This document shows positions 36,507-54,076 of a stretch of DNA of 54,137 nt, piece after piece (positions within the stretch are counted from its first letter, which is position 1; every line of letters begins with the position of its first letter). Both the position numbers and the translations under genes were made by a program. The DNA comes from a bacterium (GTDB taxonomy: Bacteria > Patescibacteriota > Doudnabacteria > UBA920 > VMFF01): NCBI GenBank assembly GCA_021811585.1, contig JAJZOG010000011.1, positions 1 to 54,137 on the forward strand, in the 5' to 3' direction. The notes beneath the pieces were generated by a model. It was given only the letters and a program-made list of their open reading frames with translations, had not been told where the DNA came from and made no database searches.

Positions 36507-37301
36507 TTAATGCTCAATGGTATTTTTACTCTCAATGGCATCCTGATTTTCAACGGCACCATGATTCTCAACAACATCCCGATTTTCAACAACACCACGA
36601 TGCTCAATGACAGCCCGCCTGTGCGTATTTTTTTCGTCGCTCAAAACTTCTCCGTCTTTAATATGAATAATGCGGTTGGCGTGCTCGGCAACATACGGCT
36701 CGTGCGTTATTAAAACAATGGTTCTGCCTTGCTCGTTTAAATCCTGAAAAGTGCCTAAAACAATATCGCCTGTTTTTGTATCCAAATTTCCCGTGGGCTC
36801 GTCCGCGAGCACAAGAGCGGGATTGTTTACCAGCGCCCGTGCAATTGCCACGCGCTGCTGCTGGCCTCCTGAGAGTTGGTTGGAAAGATGATAAAACCTG
36901 GATTCATCCAAGCCGGATTGCAAAAGCGCGCTTTTTGCCATTTCTTCGCGCTTACTCCTTTCAATCTCGGCGTAAACCAAAGGCAAGGCAACATTGCGCA
37001 CGACAGTGGCGCGCGGAAGCAAATTAAAAGATTGGAAAACGAAACCGATTTTTTTCCTGCGGATTTCGGCAAGGTTATCATCCGAAAGCGTGGAAACATC
37101 GTGCCCGTCTAAAATATATTTGCCGGATGTCGGGCTGTCCAAAGCGCCGAGGATGTGCATAAGGGTGGATTTCCCGGAGCCCGAAGGTCCCATGATGGCG
37201 ACAAACTCCCCTTCCTCAATGCTGAAATTTATATTTTTCAAAACCCGGGTTTCAATGCCTTCATTAAAATACGATTTGAAAATATTTTGAAGTTGAATCA
37301 T
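36507..37301 (-). CDS. MacB/LolD-type ABC ATPase with C-terminal repeat tail
   Basis: 264 residues. Walker [10 protein letters not shown] (38-46), Q-loop, signature [15 protein letters not shown] (about 144-158), Walker [14 protein letters not shown]-loop ITHE. The ATPase domain ends near residue 225, as is normal for LolD-type proteins. The last 36 residues are a unique tail from six 18-nt repeats, reading as variations on VVENRD. The stop codon follows the repeat array directly. Partner of the permease 9 bases downstream and the adaptor upstream. Confidence 0.93.
36510..36617. repeat. Six 18-nt tandem units inside the ABC ATPase gene
   Basis: Contiguous 18-base units starting at 36510, 36528, 36546, 36564, 36582 and 36600, for example ATTCTCAACAACATCCCG and ATTTTCAACAACACCACG on the plus strand. 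Adjacent units differ at two to six positions. The length is a multiple of three, so the ATPase frame is kept. The array ends exactly at the stop codon. Confidence 0.85.
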
Positions 37302-39123: not shown

Positions 39124-39170
39124 TTTAGGTTTTAGGTTGGGGGTTTGGGTTGGGGGTTTGGGTTGGACCC
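39124..39170. repeat. GGGTCCAACCC element at a stop codon
   Basis: Read on the minus strand it begins GGGTCCAACCCAAACCCCC, then AACCCAAACCCCCAACCT and AAAACCT. The first G of the element is also the G of the TAG stop of the membrane-protein gene ending at 39170. It lies in the spacer before the adaptor gene. Same family as copies at 46438, 47261, 50887 and 54011. Confidence 0.85.
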
Positions 39171-44543: not shown

Positions 44544-46436
44544 ATGAAAACAAAAAACAAACAAACCGGCTTCACTCCAATTCAACAAAGCTTCATTCCG
44601 ACGGAACAAAGCTTCAATCCAGTCCAACAAAACAGCTTCACACTAACGGAACAAAGTTCCACTCCAATTCAACAAAACGGTTTCACTCTAATTGAAATTG
44701 TGGTAAGCATAGGAATTTTCGCCATACTTCTTGTTGGCATAATCAGCGCCTACAATTTGATGGCGCGCGGGGTTCGCGCTTTTCGGGAGCAGGCAACAAT
44801 TGCCGCGCTCGCGGACCAATACCTGGAAACCGCGCGCAATCTTCCCTATTCGCAAATAGGGACAACAAGCGGCAACCCGCACGGCAACCTTCCGGACCAA
44901 ACAGACCCGGCAACAAACAGCATCAATGGCGTGAATTATCAAATTTACTATGACATTGCCTACATTGACGATCCGGCTGATGACGCCACAGATACCTATC
45001 CCAACGATTACAAACAAGTGAAAGTTTATGTAAAAAATGAAAACACAGATGCGCTTGAAAGTTTTATTACCACAATCGCGCCGCAAGGCGAAGAAAGTTT
45101 GGCTTCAGGCGGCGAATTGCAGATTTCGGTTATTAACGCGGTGGGCCAGCCTGTTGCCGGCGCTTCGGTCCAAATTACAAATACTTCCATTTCTCCAAGC
45201 ATTAATGTTACACGGACAACGGACGCAAACGGCAATTGGGATGAAGCCGGCCTGCCTGACAGCGTCAACGGCTATCATATTGTTGTCACAAAATCAGGAT
45301 ATTCCATTGACCAAACCTACCCCATAACGCCGCAAAATCCAAACCCAGTTAAACCGGATGCCACAATTTCAAACGGCCAAATTACACAGGTAAGCTTTGC
45401 CATTGATTTGCTCAGCAATCTTACGATTGAAACTTTAAACCAGAAATGTTCGGCGATTTCCGGAGTCGGCACAAATGTACAAGGCGCAAAACTGATTGGC
45501 ACAAACCCCAATATTCCGAAATTCGATAATACTTTCACTTCCGATTCCAGCGGCAGCATAAATATGAATGGGATTGAATGGGATACTTACACTCCCACGC
45601 TCACTGATCCCGCGTATATGATTTACGGCTCATCGCCAATCCAGCAAATAAGCTTACTGCCAAACACCAGCGCGCTTTTCACTCTTATATTAGGACCCGC
45701 GACCGCCAACAGTTTGCTTGTAATAGTAAAAGACGCCGGCGGCAATCCCGTGGAAGGCGCCAATGTTGATTTGCAAACCATAACTCCGGCCAGCGACACC
45801 AACCAAACAACAGGCGGAAGCGTTTGGCTGCAAAACGATTGGTCCGGCGGATTCGGACAAGCGGATTGGTCAAGCCCTTCCATGTACTACCAAGACAGCG
45901 GCACAGTAAACACCGCAACAGCCGGACAAGTGGCGCTTTCACAGGCAAGCGGCGGAGGCGGAGGCACATATTCAAGTTCCGGGTGGCTGGAGTCCTCGTC
46001 TTTTGATACCGGATCAAGCCGCACATCTTATACTACTTTGGATTGGCAGCCGACTTCCCAAAATCCTTCCACCAGCATCTCTTTCCAAATAGCGACAAAT
46101 AATGACGATAAAACCTGGAATTTTTTGGGACCAAACGGGACTACCGGCAGTTTTTACACTGTGCCCGGCACAACCATAAGTTCAGCGAACAACGGAAACC
46201 GGTATGTGCGCTACAAAGTTTATTTTTCGACAAACGACACCTCCAAAACGCCCGTACTCACGAGCGTGGGCATAAATTATGTTTCCGGATGTTTCACTCC
46301 AGGGCAAACCATTTTCCCGGGCCTCACAGCAGGGTCCAATTACAATGTTATTGTGAGCGCGACCGGATATACCACGCAAACCTTCAATAACGTGGATATT
46401 AACGGATACAATGTTTTGGATGTGACACTGCAGTAA
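44544..46436 (+). CDS. Large type IV pilin-like protein with nested surface domains
   Basis: 630 residues. Prepilin motif G46-FTLIE (F47, E51) followed by the hydrophobic helix IVVSIGIFAILLVGIISAYNLM. The leader is unusually long (46 residues) because it contains five degenerate copies of the motif. The ectodomain has a carboxypeptidase-regulatory-like beta sandwich (ISVINAVGQPVAGASVQI; GYHIVVTKSGY, about 190-265) and a second such domain (NSLLVIVKDAGGNPVEGANVDL) that resumes only at GSNYNVIVSATGYTTQTFNNV. Between them a discoidin-like sandwich of about 160 residues is inserted. Probably a surface-exposed minor pilin or adhesin at a pilus tip. The TAA stop is followed by one base and then the dispersed element. 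Confidence 0.85.
   Translation: MKTKNKQTGFTPIQQSFIPTEQSFNPVQQNSFTLTEQSSTPIQQNGFTLIEIVVSIGIFAILLVGIISAYNLMARGVRAFREQATIAALADQYLETARNLPYSQIGTTSGNPHGNLPDQTDPATNSINGVNYQIYYDIAYIDDPADDATDTYPNDYKQVKVYVKNENTDALESFITTIAPQGEESLASGGELQISVINAVGQPVAGASVQITNTSISPSINVTRTTDANGNWDEAGLPDSVNGYHIVVTKSGYSIDQTYPITPQNPNPVKPDATISNGQITQVSFAIDLLSNLTIETLNQKCSAISGVGTNVQGAKLIGTNPNIPKFDNTFTSDSSGSINMNGIEWDTYTPTLTDPAYMIYGSSPIQQISLLPNTSALFTLILGPATANSLLVIVKDAGGNPVEGANVDLQTITPASDTNQTTGGSVWLQNDWSGGFGQADWSSPSMYYQDSGTVNTATAGQVALSQASGGGGGTYSSSGWLESSSFDTGSSRTSYTTLDWQPTSQNPSTSISFQIATNNDDKTWNFLGPNGTTGSFYTVPGTTISSANNGNRYVRYKVYFSTNDTSKTPVLTSVGINYVSGCFTPGQTIFPGLTAGSNYNVIVSATGYTTQTFNNVDINGYNVLDVTLQ
44568..44696. repeat. Degenerate repeats echoing the prepilin motif
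   Basis: Five imperfect units of 21-24 bases built on GCTTCAnTCCAATTCAACAAA precede the genuine GGTTTCACTCTAATTGAA. They translate as GFTPIQQ, SFIPTEQ, SFNPVQQN, SFTLTEQ and STPIQQN, then GFTLIE. Only the first copy has Gly at -1, and it has Gln where the essential Glu at +5 should be, so only the last unit is a good prepilin-peptidase site. Confidence 0.75.
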
Positions 46437-46437
46437 C

Positions 46438-46489
46438 GGGTCCAACCCAAACCCCCAACCTAATACCCCAACCTAATACCCCAACCTAA
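46438..46489. repeat. GGGTCCAACCC element after the large pilin gene
   Basis: Plus-strand copy: GGGTCCAACCCAAACCCCC, then AACCTAATACCCC twice and AACCTAAAA. It starts two bases after the TAA of the pilin gene. The preceding CTGCAGTA is the same as at the DedA gene end (CTGCAGTAGGGTCC). Same orientation relative to the upstream gene as at 39170 and 51030. Confidence 0.85.
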
Positions 46490-46570
46490 AATTTTCAGCG
46501 CCCATATTTCTCGCTTATCCAAGCCGAAAATTATCCATATTAATCAAATCATCACAAAAATTTAATAAAA

Positions 46571-47182
46571 ATGAAAGAAAAAGGATTTACATTAATAGAG
46601 GTGATTGTTTCTATAGCAATTTTTGCGCTGTTATTTACCGGGGTTGTAGAATTAGTGGGGAAAATTTTTACCCAGGCTGGCGGACAATCGCTACTTCTAA
46701 GCAACGCGGATCAGGCGCGTAAAATAGTTTTCGCCTTTGCGGATGAAATTCGGAACGCCACATACGGGAATGACGGTTCATATCCCGTCGCCGAAGCGAA
46801 CGATCAAGAAATAATTTTTTTTAGCAGTGAGCCGCAGAACCCGCAAATAGCTGATAAAATCCGTTATTACATTTCCGGAAACGCCCTGTATCGCGGAATT
46901 ACAGTACCGAGTGGGAGTCCACTTTCCTACAATGGCGCAAACGAACAAAGCACCAAAATTGAGGATACCGTCGCAAACGGGACGACGCCACTGTTTTATT
47001 ATTATGACGGAAATTATGATGGTACAACTTCGCCGCTCACGCAACCTGTAAATTTGACCCAAATTAGATTTATCAAAATAAATATGGTAATTCCCAATCC
47101 TGCCGGCACGCAAACAAACAATACTTTCCCGATAACAGGAGGGGCAACTCTCAGAAATTTAAAGACAAATTTAGGCGATTAA
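46571..47182 (+). CDS. Type IV pilin-like protein (PulJ/PilW type)
   Basis: 203 residues. Short leader MKEKG and prepilin motif GFTLIEVIVSIAIFALLFTGVVELV with E at +5; the ectodomain starts QAGGQSLLLSNADQARKIVFAFADEIRNATYG, the usual DExRNA-type layout of PulJ/PilW minor pseudopilins. It probably joins the large pilin and the PilX-like protein in one tip complex. No SD is visible; the gene follows the large pilin after 134 bases that include the dispersed element. It is spaced four bases from the next gene. Confidence 0.88.
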   Translation: MKEKGFTLIEVIVSIAIFALLFTGVVELVGKIFTQAGGQSLLLSNADQARKIVFAFADEIRNATYGNDGSYPVAEANDQEIIFFSSEPQNPQIADKIRYYISGNALYRGITVPSGSPLSYNGANEQSTKIEDTVANGTTPLFYYYDGNYDGTTSPLTQPVNLTQIRFIKINMVIPNPAGTQTNNTFPITGGATLRNLKTNLGD

Positions 47183-47186
47183 TTAA

Positions 47187-48668
47187 ATGAAAATTAAATT
47201 TAACAAAAATAAAATAAAAACTAAAGCCAAAGCTGCCAAAAACTGCCAAACCAATATTCAGGTTAGGGGTTCAGGTCGGGGGTTCAGGTCGGGGGTTTGG
47301 GTTGGACCCCAATGCGGAAGCATGCTCATCTATCTGGTCGTCATTATTTTTATTTTTTCCTTGGTGATGCTCCCCATTTTGAGCAACATCGTCAAAGAAA
47401 TGCAGGTTCTGCGATCTTCAACTTACCGCGAAGAAGCGCTGCAAATCGCCGACGCCGGCGTAAATTATTACCAATGGCACCTCGCGCATTTTCCCACGGA
47501 TTATCAAGACGGCACGAACGCGCCGGGCCCATACGTGCACAATTATGTAGACACATCAACCCAGCAAACCATCGGCGAATTCAGTTTAAGCATCACCCCG
47601 CCTCTCGCTGGCTCCACAATCGTCACAATCATATCCACGGGCTGGACAAACAGCGATCCAAATATTAAAAGAACAGTAACCGCGCGCTACGGAATTCCCT
47701 CTCTGGCGCGCTACGCATTCCTCAGCAACGATGTTGTCTGGATAGGCAGCCAGGAAAATGTCTCGGGCACGCTCATGTCCAACAACGGCGTTCGCTTTGA
47801 CGGCACTACAAACGCGCCGGTTGAATCGGCAAAATCAACCTACACGTGCCCTGCTTCCCAGGGAACTCCATGCCCGGCAACTGAAAACGGCGTTTGGGGC
47901 GCAGGCAATTCAAATTTCTGGCAATATCCCGTTCCTGCCGTTGATTTCTCCAGCTTAACCGCAACAATGGCAAACCTGCAAAACCTGGCGCAAAGCGGCG
48001 GAATATTTTTGCCGCCTTCAAACGCACAGGGCTATTCCCTGGTTTTCAACAGCGACGGCACTGTGAGCGTCTACAAAGTTACCAGCTTGCAAGGCAATCC
48101 CCAAGGATGGGATGTCTACGGCAGGCCTCAACACCAGAACACAGATTACAACAACAGGACGCTTCTTTTTACAGACCCAATCCCATCCAACGGAATAATT
48201 TATGTCGAAGATACAACTTGGGTTGAAGGCACGGTAAACGGCCGCGCAACGGTTGCCGCGGGGATGCTGCCGTACAATCCGAATTCATCTCCTTCAATTT
48301 ATATTCCCAACAGCATAACCTATGCGGCAAAAGACGGCTCAGATGTCCTTGGGTTGATCGCCCAAAACAATCTTGCGCTCACATACCACGCCCCGGCGAG
48401 CATGGAAGTTGATGCTGTCCTTGTTGCTGAAAATGGGAGCGTACAATTCTTTTATTACCCCGACAATGTTAAAAATACGCTCACGGTTTTCGGTTCCATA
48501 ATCACTTACGGGCAATGGACGTGGACCTGGCTAAATGGCCAAGGCCAGCCGCAAGCAGGATATGAAACCACTTATGATACTTATGATGCAAATTTGCTAT
48601 ACAGTCCTCCGCCAAGCTTTCCGCTTTCAAATTCAGGGTATCAACTCTTAAGCTGGTCAAGCAATTAA
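47187..48668 (+). CDS. PilX-like pseudopilin-cluster protein carrying an in-frame repeat element
   Basis: 493 residues. After a basic N-terminus comes the hydrophobic helix SMLIYLVVIIFIFSLVMLPIL and EEALQIADAGVNYYQWHLAHF, typical of PilX/pilus-assembly proteins lacking the Glu5 of canonical pilins. The ectodomain is beta-rich and large (about 420 residues) with VEGTVNGRATVAAG- and DVLGLIAQNNLALTYHAPASMEVDAVLVAENGSVQ, a beta-helix-like region also seen in DUF4900-type proteins. Residues 25-43 are encoded by an inverted copy of the dispersed element, inserted without breaking the frame just before the G44-S45 junction. Confidence 0.8.
   Translation: MKIKFNKNKIKTKAKAAKNCQTNIQVRGSGRGFRSGVWVGPQCGSMLIYLVVIIFIFSLVMLPILSNIVKEMQVLRSSTYREEALQIADAGVNYYQWHLAHFPTDYQDGTNAPGPYVHNYVDTSTQQTIGEFSLSITPPLAGSTIVTIISTGWTNSDPNIKRTVTARYGIPSLARYAFLSNDVVWIGSQENVSGTLMSNNGVRFDGTTNAPVESAKSTYTCPASQGTPCPATENGVWGAGNSNFWQYPVPAVDFSSLTATMANLQNLAQSGGIFLPPSNAQGYSLVFNSDGTVSVYKVTSLQGNPQGWDVYGRPQHQNTDYNNRTLLFTDPIPSNGIIYVEDTTWVEGTVNGRATVAAGMLPYNPNSSPSIYIPNSITYAAKDGSDVLGLIAQNNLALTYHAPASMEVDAVLVAENGSVQFFYYPDNVKNTLTVFGSIITYGQWTWTWLNGQGQPQAGYETTYDTYDANLLYSPPPSFPLSNSGYQLLSWSSN
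47261..47310. repeat. Inverted copy of the dispersed element inside a CDS
   Basis: GGTTAGGGGTTCAGGTCGGG continues through GGGTTTGGGTTGGACCCC on the plus strand; the reverse complement begins GGGTCCAACCCAAACCCCC, as in the other copies. Here it lies in the opposite orientation to its gene and is translated as a Gly/Arg/Val-rich stretch. Confidence 0.8.
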
Positions 48669-49110: not shown

Positions 49111-49692
49111 TTACTCCAATTTTCTAAACACATAACCTTGCCGGGCAAGCTCCGGCAGGCAAATTCTCAGCGCTTCGGCAGTGCGGCCGCGTTTTGCATG
49201 AACAAGTGTTTTTTCGCCGTCATGTAAAAGGATAATTGCCCCCGGGCCGGCGCGTTTAACAATCCTCCGCGCCATCCATTGCGCGCTTGGCTGCCACCAA
49301 TCATAAGCATGCAAATCCCAGGAAAAAAATTTATAACCGGCGCGCTCCAGTTTCCGGCGCGCTGATTTAGGAATTTTTCCCCACGGTGCGCGCAGCAAAC
49401 GCGGCGCAAACCCGATGATTTGGCGCAAGGCCTCTCCTGTTTTTAAAAATTCCCGCGCAAGCGCGCGTCCGAAAAAAATATTGCGCCAGGCATGCGCATA
49501 AGAATGGTTGCCCAAAGCATGCCCCTGTGCGGCAATCCGCCTCACAAGCTCGGGGTTTCTCAACGCATTTTTTCCGCAGACAAAAAAAGTCGCCTCAGCT
49601 CCGTTTTGCGCCAAAATTTCCAAAATCTCCTCTGTGCATGGCGGGTTTGGCCCGTCATCAAAAGTGAAATATAAAATTTTCCGCCCGTTCAT
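49111..49692 (-). CDS. Polysaccharide deacetylase (NodB domain)
   Basis: 193 residues, carbohydrate esterase family 4. Catalytic base and metal ligands: TFDDGPNPP (motif 1, residues 9-17), HSYAH (motif 2), RAPWGK (motif 3), and ILLHDG near the C-terminus. No signal peptide, so it acts in the cytoplasm or is exported another way. Likely removes N- or O-acetyl groups from peptidoglycan or a surface glycan. Its start lies inside the end of the GT2 gene (35-base overlap), in a region of repeated start-like units. Confidence 0.92.
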   Translation of the reverse strand: MNGRKILYFTFDDGPNPPCTEEILEILAQNGAEATFFVCGKNALRNPELVRRIAAQGHALGNHSYAHAWRNIFFGRALAREFLKTGEALRQIIGFAPRLLRAPWGKIPKSARRKLERAGYKFFSWDLHAYDWWQPSAQWMARRIVKRAGPGAIILLHDGEKTLVHAKRGRTAEALRICLPELARQGYVFRKLE

Positions 49693-50779
49693 TTTGCCCT
49701 TTCATTTCCGCTCGTTCATTTTTGCCTGCCATTTTGCCCTGCCATTTTGCTCGTTCATTTTTTGGCCTGCCATTATTCAAATTGCCAAGCCGCCTCAACC
49801 GCTGCTTAATGGCAGGATGAAAATTCCAACGCAAATCTTTTACTCCGCGATCAACCCTCAAATCCACGTTTCGCGCGCCGGCATCCAAAAAGGCGTCGGC
49901 GCCGGCGCCGGCTTTTTGAGCGCCGAGATAAATCCTTTCCGCCCCGCTGCCGCCGAATTTCGCCGCGCGCGCAAAAATTGCGCCGTGCGTAAATACCGTG
50001 GCAGCCGCCAAAACCACTGCCAAAGGCCACGCATAAGCAATCGGCGAAATTGATTCATGCCTGATTGGCGGCAATTCATTTTTATAATTCTTACCAAAAA
50101 AATCGCGCGAGACAACGTTGGGAACATATCCGTAGGCAGCGGCCCAAAACCCTTTTCTATACCTGCGGCCAGAGGTCGCCACAATCAGCTTCTTATCCAG
50201 GACAACCTTGCCATAGCGTGAAAGTTTTTTTGAAAGCTCGCCGTCTTCGCCCATTTTCAAATTAGTATTAAAACCGCCGGATTTTAGAAAAACATTTTTT
50301 AGTACAGCCATATTTGCGCCCGGGAGAATCCAGCAGCCGGTCCATCTTTTTTCCAATTTCCAGGCATAGTATGCTCCGCGCGGAAATAACATTCGGGTCA
50401 AAAGCGGTCCAGAGACGAGCTTGTAGAGGCCGCCATAAGCGACGACATTCCTTTTTGCGGAAAATTTTGCCGCGATTTTGGAAAGCCAGTTCTCGGGCAA
50501 AATTGTATCCGCGTCGGTGGTTGCGATGATTTCGCCGCGCGCGCATTCAAAACCTTTTTGGCGCGCATAAGCCACGCCGGCCCTGGTTTCAAAAACAACT
50601 TTTGCCCCGCCGCGCAAAGCAATGTGCGCGGTTTTGTCCGTGGAATTATTATCAACAACAATAACCTCGAAATTCTTATAATCCTGCCTGGCAACACTTG
50701 CCAAGGTCCTGGCCAGGAAATGCTCTTCGTTAAATGCGGGGATCACTATTGAAATTAAAGGATTTCTCCGGTTTTTCAT
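49658..50779 (-). CDS. GT2 family glycosyltransferase
   Basis: 373 residues from ATG 50779. GT-A domain: ISIVIPAFNEEHFLARTLASVARQDYKNFEVIVVDNNSTD, DxD-type TTDADT, LPGANMAVLKNVFLKSGGFNTNLKMGEDGELSKKL. One hydrophobic segment follows (PIAYAWPLAVVLAAATVF), then a basic C-terminus ending in repeat-derived sequence. It transfers a sugar from a nucleotide donor, probably to a surface glycan; the deacetylase downstream may modify the same polymer. A GTG six codons upstream is an alternative start: an 18-base segment containing the start codon (TTTAGTTRTGAAAAAC) is tandemly duplicated there. Confidence 0.9.
   Translation of the reverse strand: MKNRRNPLISIVIPAFNEEHFLARTLASVARQDYKNFEVIVVDNNSTDKTAHIALRGGAKVVFETRAGVAYARQKGFECARGEIIATTDADTILPENWLSKIAAKFSAKRNVVAYGGLYKLVSGPLLTRMLFPRGAYYAWKLEKRWTGCWILPGANMAVLKNVFLKSGGFNTNLKMGEDGELSKKLSRYGKVVLDKKLIVATSGRRYRKGFWAAAYGYVPNVVSRDFFGKNYKNELPPIRHESISPIAYAWPLAVVLAAATVFTHGAIFARAAKFGGSGAERIYLGAQKAGAGADAFLDAGARNVDLRVDRGVKDLRWNFHPAIKQRLRRLGNLNNGRPKNERAKWQGKMAGKNERAEMKGQNERAENFIFHF
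49690..49775. repeat. Repeated start-codon-like units at the GT2/deacetylase junction
   Basis: On the minus strand ATGAACGAGC occurs twice and ATGAACGGGC once (the last is the true deacetylase start), separated by AAAATGGCAGGGC and AAAATGGCAGGC copies. The units encode the last 30 or so residues of the GT2 protein (KNERAKWQGKMAGKNERA). It looks as if the deacetylase start region had been copied upstream into the neighbouring gene. Confidence 0.7.
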
Positions 50780-50886
50780 AACTAAACTGTTTTTCACAAC
50801 TAAACTTAATTTTAGGGTTTAAAAATTATGGTTTTAGGCTTTTAATATTGAGGATTTAGGTTGAATTTAAGTAAAATTTGCATTTT

Positions 50887-51037
50887 GGGTTGGGGGTTTG
50901 GGTTGGGGGTTTGGGTTGGGGGTTTAGGTTGGGGGTTTGGGTTGGACCCTACTGCATGGGGGTTTGGGTTGGACCCTACTGCATGGGGGTTTGGGTTGGA
51001 CCCTACTGCATGGGGGTTTGGGTTGGACCCTACTGCA
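50887..51037. repeat. Largest dispersed-element array: 13-nt and 27-nt tandem units
   Basis: Plus strand: four 13-base units of GGGTTGGGGGTTT (50887-50938, one with A at position 1), then 27-base units from GGACCCTACTGCATGGGGG at 50944, 50971 and 50998 and a partial fourth at 51025. On the minus strand each 27-base unit contains TGCAGTAGGGTCCAACCC, so the last codon and TAG stop of the DedA gene are copied in every unit. All six frames stay open over long stretches, but only because of the repeats. Confidence 0.9.
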
Positions 51038-54010: not shown

Positions 54011-54076
54011 GGGTCCAACCCAAACCCCCAACCTAAACCCCTGATCCAAACCCCCAATCTAAAACCCTAACCTAAA
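54011..54076. repeat. GGGTCCAACCC element at the right edge
   Basis: Plus-strand copy after the terminator at 53971-53998: GGGTCCAACCCAAACCCCC, then AACCTAAACCCCTGATCC, AAACCCCCAATCTAAAACCC and TAACCTAA. It is less regular than the copies at 39 and 51 kb but has the same head. The remaining 61 bases to the window end are AT-rich and show no feature. Confidence 0.8.

Follow-up and report, generated by a model that had tools for sequence, protein, structure and literature searches.

Probable growth of a prepilin leader by in-frame tandem duplication at the cleavage motif in Doudnabacteria, with palindromic insertions at the same place in relatives

Results

The prepilin gene and its lengthened leader

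In the draft genome of an uncultured Doudnabacteria lineage (0.75 Mb in 19 contigs), we analyzed a contig of 54,137 nucleotides, referred to below as the window, and identified a prepilin-like gene with an unusually built leader. This leader probably owes its length to repeated tandem duplication, in frame, at the junction with the cleavage motif, and in relatives the same place is lengthened by palindromic elements. The gene, the parts of its leader, and the two following genes of the cluster are as follows:

44544..46436, + strand: prepilin-like protein, 630 aa, with N_methyl, CarboxypepD_reg and a Big_1-like stretch; kept in the class at 49-61% identity
44544..44567, + strand: putative original short leader MKTKNKQT, ending CAAACC (from the sequence and the similar length of orthologue leaders)
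44568..44588, + strand: unit 1, GFTPIQQ, Gly(-1) kept; agrees with the predicted product of duplication at 18/21 positions
44589..44609, + strand: unit 2, SFIPTEQ
44610..44633, + strand: unit 3, SFNPVQQN
44634..44654, + strand: unit 4, SFTLTEQ
44655..44678, + strand: unit 5, SSTPIQQN
44679..44696, + strand: genuine GFTLIE, the type III (prepilin) cleavage motif; a hydrophobic helix comes after it, at residues about 46-66 (Pfam, hydropathy)
46571..47182, + strand: next prepilin of the cluster, with the ordinary short leader MKEKG/FTLIE
47187..48668, + strand: third pilin-like gene; a 13-nt repeat (47257-47297) extends its N-terminus as well

The assignment to type IV prepilins follows from the N_methyl profile PF07963, which matches residues 44-66 with 26.1 bits against a curated cut-off of 21.2 in the Pfam search, and from TIGR02532 (22.6 bits, cut-off 16.3). 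The scores for the GspI and ComGE pseudopilin equivalogs are below their cut-offs (25.6 vs 44.35 and 24.7 vs 49 bits, respectively). Pfam also places a CarboxypepD_reg domain in the protein, while the Big_1 stretch is sub-threshold. By hydropathy, the only strongly hydrophobic stretch of the N-terminus covers residues about 46-66, and 19-residue windows starting from residues 46 and 51 reach about 2.5, so that the helix lies directly after the motif. Profile searches showed that the genome encodes one prepilin peptidase (PF01478), and from the sequence it is predicted to cleave after Gly46. The third pilin-like gene has no Pfam or NCBIfam match.

The leader array lies directly 5' of GFTLIE at 44568-44678 and is composed of units of 21, 21, 24, 21 and 24 nt. 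Tandem Repeats Finder (TRF) reports it with a period of 21 (score 84) and also as a 45-nt dimer (score 119). Identities of units 1-5 to the 18-nt motif are 15, 11, 11, 13 and 14, and their sum of 64 is well outside the codon-shuffle control (mean 38.4, maximum 51 in 20,000 shuffles). The sequence, TRF and the shuffles thus bear out the first-pass annotation, which had described five degenerate units of this size ahead of the genuine motif and a leader extended to 46 residues, with Gly(-1) as residue 46. It had also stated that the combination of Gly(-1) and Glu(+5) is missing from every unit, and this is the case; unit 1 alone retains Gly(-1), and units 2-5 have Ser in its place. Since the units alternate as a dimer, the Gly-to-Ser change common to units 2-5 may represent one event followed by amplification rather than four losses. 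When the five units are compared codon by codon, nonsynonymous differences (33) prevail over synonymous ones (8; the pairs are not independent), and hence there is no sign of amino-acid conservation in the array. A whole-genome search revealed no further copy of the array.

Fit to a tandem duplication model

We propose that 24 nt located where leader and cleavage motif meet (GGTTTCACTCTAATTGAA plus CAAACC) were duplicated in tandem, in frame and repeatedly, by replication slippage or unequal exchange. The duplicated segment would consist of the cleavage-motif DNA and the six bases that ended the old leader. In every round, the prepilin-peptidase site would remain confined to the copy adjoining the membrane helix, and the upstream copies would be left in the part that is removed and lost, where they could drift as long as the frame was kept. 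The product predicted by this model is matched by the five units at 83 of 111 positions, compared with a shuffle maximum of 56 in 20,000; for units 1-5 the match is 86, 67, 67, 76 and 79%, respectively. We infer the order of the duplications, since we found no sister species in which the copy number is intermediate and the array is known from one genome.

TRF also detected short tandem arrays elsewhere in the window that lie at the ends of proteins. The 13-nt repeat of the third pilin-like gene has the unit TTCAGGTCGGGGG, and related 13-nt arrays are located at 39131-39166, 46442-46491, 50884-50945 and 54015-54076. The C-terminal tail of an ABC ATPase (36507-37301) is formed by an 18-nt in-frame tandem repeat (36532-36607), and that of a glycosyltransferase ORF (49658-50797) by a 13/27/40-nt repeat (49678-49774).

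Leaders of orthologues and other prepilins

Within the class, orthologues of the 630-aa protein are about 49-61% identical, and their leaders are mostly 8-26 residues long; the nearest one, from the same family, has MLRNQKQKG. These leader lengths indicate that the expansion is lineage-specific. A search of 49 genomes of the order gave 204 prepilins. Counted from the nearest start, their leaders have a median of 11 residues, and nine have at least 40; this set is not random, as it combines the best-scoring N_methyl matches among those listed with five echo cases found via the GFTPLE pattern. In a less biased subset of about 160 prepilins, excluding that of the window, three have an upstream GFT echo of the motif. 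GFTPLE was rejected as a phylum-wide marker and its counts were not used, because most matches outside prepilins look like acetate kinase (judged from sequence) or short spurious frames. A conserved unrelated domain in the leader, which the first-pass annotation had named as a possible refutation, was also ruled out: residues 1-43 match no profile or family, and the leader is not conserved among the orthologues.

Insertions at the cleavage motif in relatives

Fourteen prepilins of the class, including the one in the window, share an architecture in which the true motif is preceded by an insert and, before this, by a motif echo or a DNA end equivalent to one. They come from L005 (the window), L021 (two), L023 (two), L039, L040, L041, L045, L048, L104, L165, L199 and L215. 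Inverted repeats that end at the motif, or no more than a few bases from it, bound the insert in both prepilins of L021 and L023 and in those of L039-L041, L045, L048 and L215. The insert of L104 contains an internal hairpin, and in L165 and L199 no inverted repeats were found at the insert ends. Three palindrome end sequences can be distinguished, namely CCCCGTTAGAAAT (type A), CCAGCACCACTTTT (type B) and CCCCGCCTCAGTTTT (type C). In the L021 pair the left end is read in a different frame, which implies that the echo is a property of the DNA and not of the protein. In 13 of the 14 cases, TTYAC has the same wobble base on the left and on the right (read by eye; Fisher p = 0.005). Within genus g19, the insert is present in L023 and missing from the orthologues in L015, L016, L022 and L024. 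In the relatives, the TTYA of Phe-Thr codons serves as the target of small palindromic elements with CCCC...GGGG ends, whose insertion duplicates TTYA and rebuilds Gly(-1)-Phe-Thr.

A search for the junction pattern in 380 genomes of the phylum identified similar leaders in several other families of Patescibacteria (L352, L362, L367, L368, L372, L379 and L380). The prepilin leader of L379, which belongs to another class than the window, has two serial imperfect palindromes and two upstream motif echoes. The multiplied motif, of which the first-pass annotation knew no described case, is therefore not unique to this pilin: in the class, 13 further prepilins combine an echo with an insert, as do several from other parts of the phylum, and palindromic elements account for most of these cases. 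In the open-access literature searched, we found no reports of palindromic elements or multiplied cleavage motifs in prepilin leaders.

The shared architecture raises the alternative that the array itself is a decayed palindromic mobile element, inserted at the TTCA of the motif and later reshuffled by slippage. The window has the same succession of short leader, GFTP echo, insert and GFTLIE, with TTCA at both ends, and the 13 other prepilins have insertions at the same place. Against this, no inverted-repeat arms bound the insert (the best arm has 9 nt and lies away from the insert ends), the genome has no type A match, and tandem duplication explains three quarters of all positions. We consider such a history unlikely, and a MITE- or RPE-like origin of the array was rejected for want of terminal inverted repeats at the insert bounds. 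The genome of the window probably reached the echo-plus-insert architecture by tandem duplication, without a palindrome.

The type A element

The main palindromic element in the class is type A, with ends CCCCGTTAGAAAT...ATTTCTAACGGGG. Searching the 49 genomes with the pattern ACCCCGTTAGARAT and one mismatch allowed, we obtained 446 half-site matches vs 24 for a control pattern; the window's own genome gave none. The target duplication is a 4-bp TNNA. Among 65 distinct copies, the 4-mers at both ends are identical in 41 and the inner bases of TNNA in 45 (shuffled mean 11.2, maximum 24). With inverted-repeat ends, dispersed copies and a target-site duplication, type A qualifies as MITE-like. 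Across L255-L294 its palindromes are dispersed and mostly intergenic, some lying in frame in other genes; one such gene, in L272 and L284, encodes an RluA-like pseudouridine synthase (identity read from sequence) with an in-frame palindrome.

The prepilin motif GGN TTY ACN contains TTYA, and the GGGG end of the element supplies the GGG codon of Gly(-1) before TTY; an insertion of the right length therefore restores Gly-Phe-Thr. Five of about 200 type A copies are located at prepilins, an enrichment that looks large and that fits both a target preference and a survival bias. We are evenly divided on the broader proposal that a family of palindromic mobile elements in Patescibacteria lands preferentially in the DNA encoding the prepilin cleavage motif, where their GGGG ends make the insertion 'self-healing' by rebuilding Gly(-1)-Phe-Thr and where they stay hidden in a discarded peptide, the tandem duplication in the window being a second route to the same outcome.

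Does the array act in processing?

The leader of a type IV pilin sits in the cytosol and is removed by prepilin peptidase (PMC7248040). In the window the hydrophobic helix adjoins the last motif only, with none after units 1-5, which together with the cytosolic location suggests that the upstream copies are inert and tolerated. In relatives, upstream GFTPLE or GFTPFE retains both Gly and Glu, so that loss of these residues is not needed to silence an echo. We infer that the array is neutral and that cleavage takes place at the last motif only; the likeliest explanation is neutral slippage within a leader that the cell discards.

The first-pass annotation had regarded the expansion as possibly neutral, which fits best, or as a source of alternative processing or secretion-delay signals, which found no support. 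Decoy or alternative prepilin-peptidase sites, or a slowed membrane insertion, could in principle tune pilin processing: the frame is open and stop-free across 111 nt, which could reflect some selection on the array, and unit 1 retains Gly(-1) and Phe-Thr. Yet the units lack a following helix, the array is not present in orthologues, the differences between units are mostly nonsynonymous, and relatives have unrelated inserts at the same place. A functional array is accordingly quite improbable in our judgement. Still less credible is an untranslated leader, with a start at a non-standard codon nearer Gly46 and the array as effectively 5' untranslated DNA: the ATG at 44544 has no clear Shine-Dalgarno sequence ahead of it, and in other bacteria palindromic repeats assigned to protein N-termini may be extragenic for the same reason (PMC3733652), but this ATG is the sole in-frame start ahead of the cleavage site, as a check for a downstream start found no in-frame ATG, GTG or TTG between 44547 and the motif, and the units, at 21 or 24 nt, preserve an open reading frame through the array.

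Discussion

The window's prepilin resembles others with the type III signal (PF07963, TIGR02532) in its GFTLIE motif, single hydrophobic helix and a peptidase encoded in the genome, and differs from them by a 46-residue leader with five degenerate motif copies, as compared with the class median of 11. In-frame palindromes in protein genes are known from Rickettsia (PMC10969869, PMC3733652). The elements of the relatives are similar to these Rickettsia palindromic elements (RPEs) in being small, dispersed and in frame in protein genes, but they belong to another phylum, differ in sequence, duplicate a TNNA target and repeatedly use the cleavage motif of prepilins; the array in the window is itself unlike RPEs, not being palindromic. 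It is closer to in-frame minisatellites at protein termini, with which it shares unit lengths divisible by three, a degenerate tandem arrangement and lineage specificity, although here the unit is the cleavage motif and each copy echoes a processing site. The earlier interpretation is thus upheld for a neutral leader built of copies of cleavage-motif DNA, and not for a processing or delay signal.

The odd leader can be accounted for without a new processing signal. The prepilin leaders of Patescibacteria tolerate insertions and receive them repeatedly, and the elements of the relatives carry protein-coding palindromes, known from Rickettsia, into another phylum. The proposed mechanism, a TTYA target plus a GGGG end, would predict the sites where insertions survive. 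For genome annotation there is a warning as well: a long N-terminus in a Patescibacteria pilin may represent an insertion.
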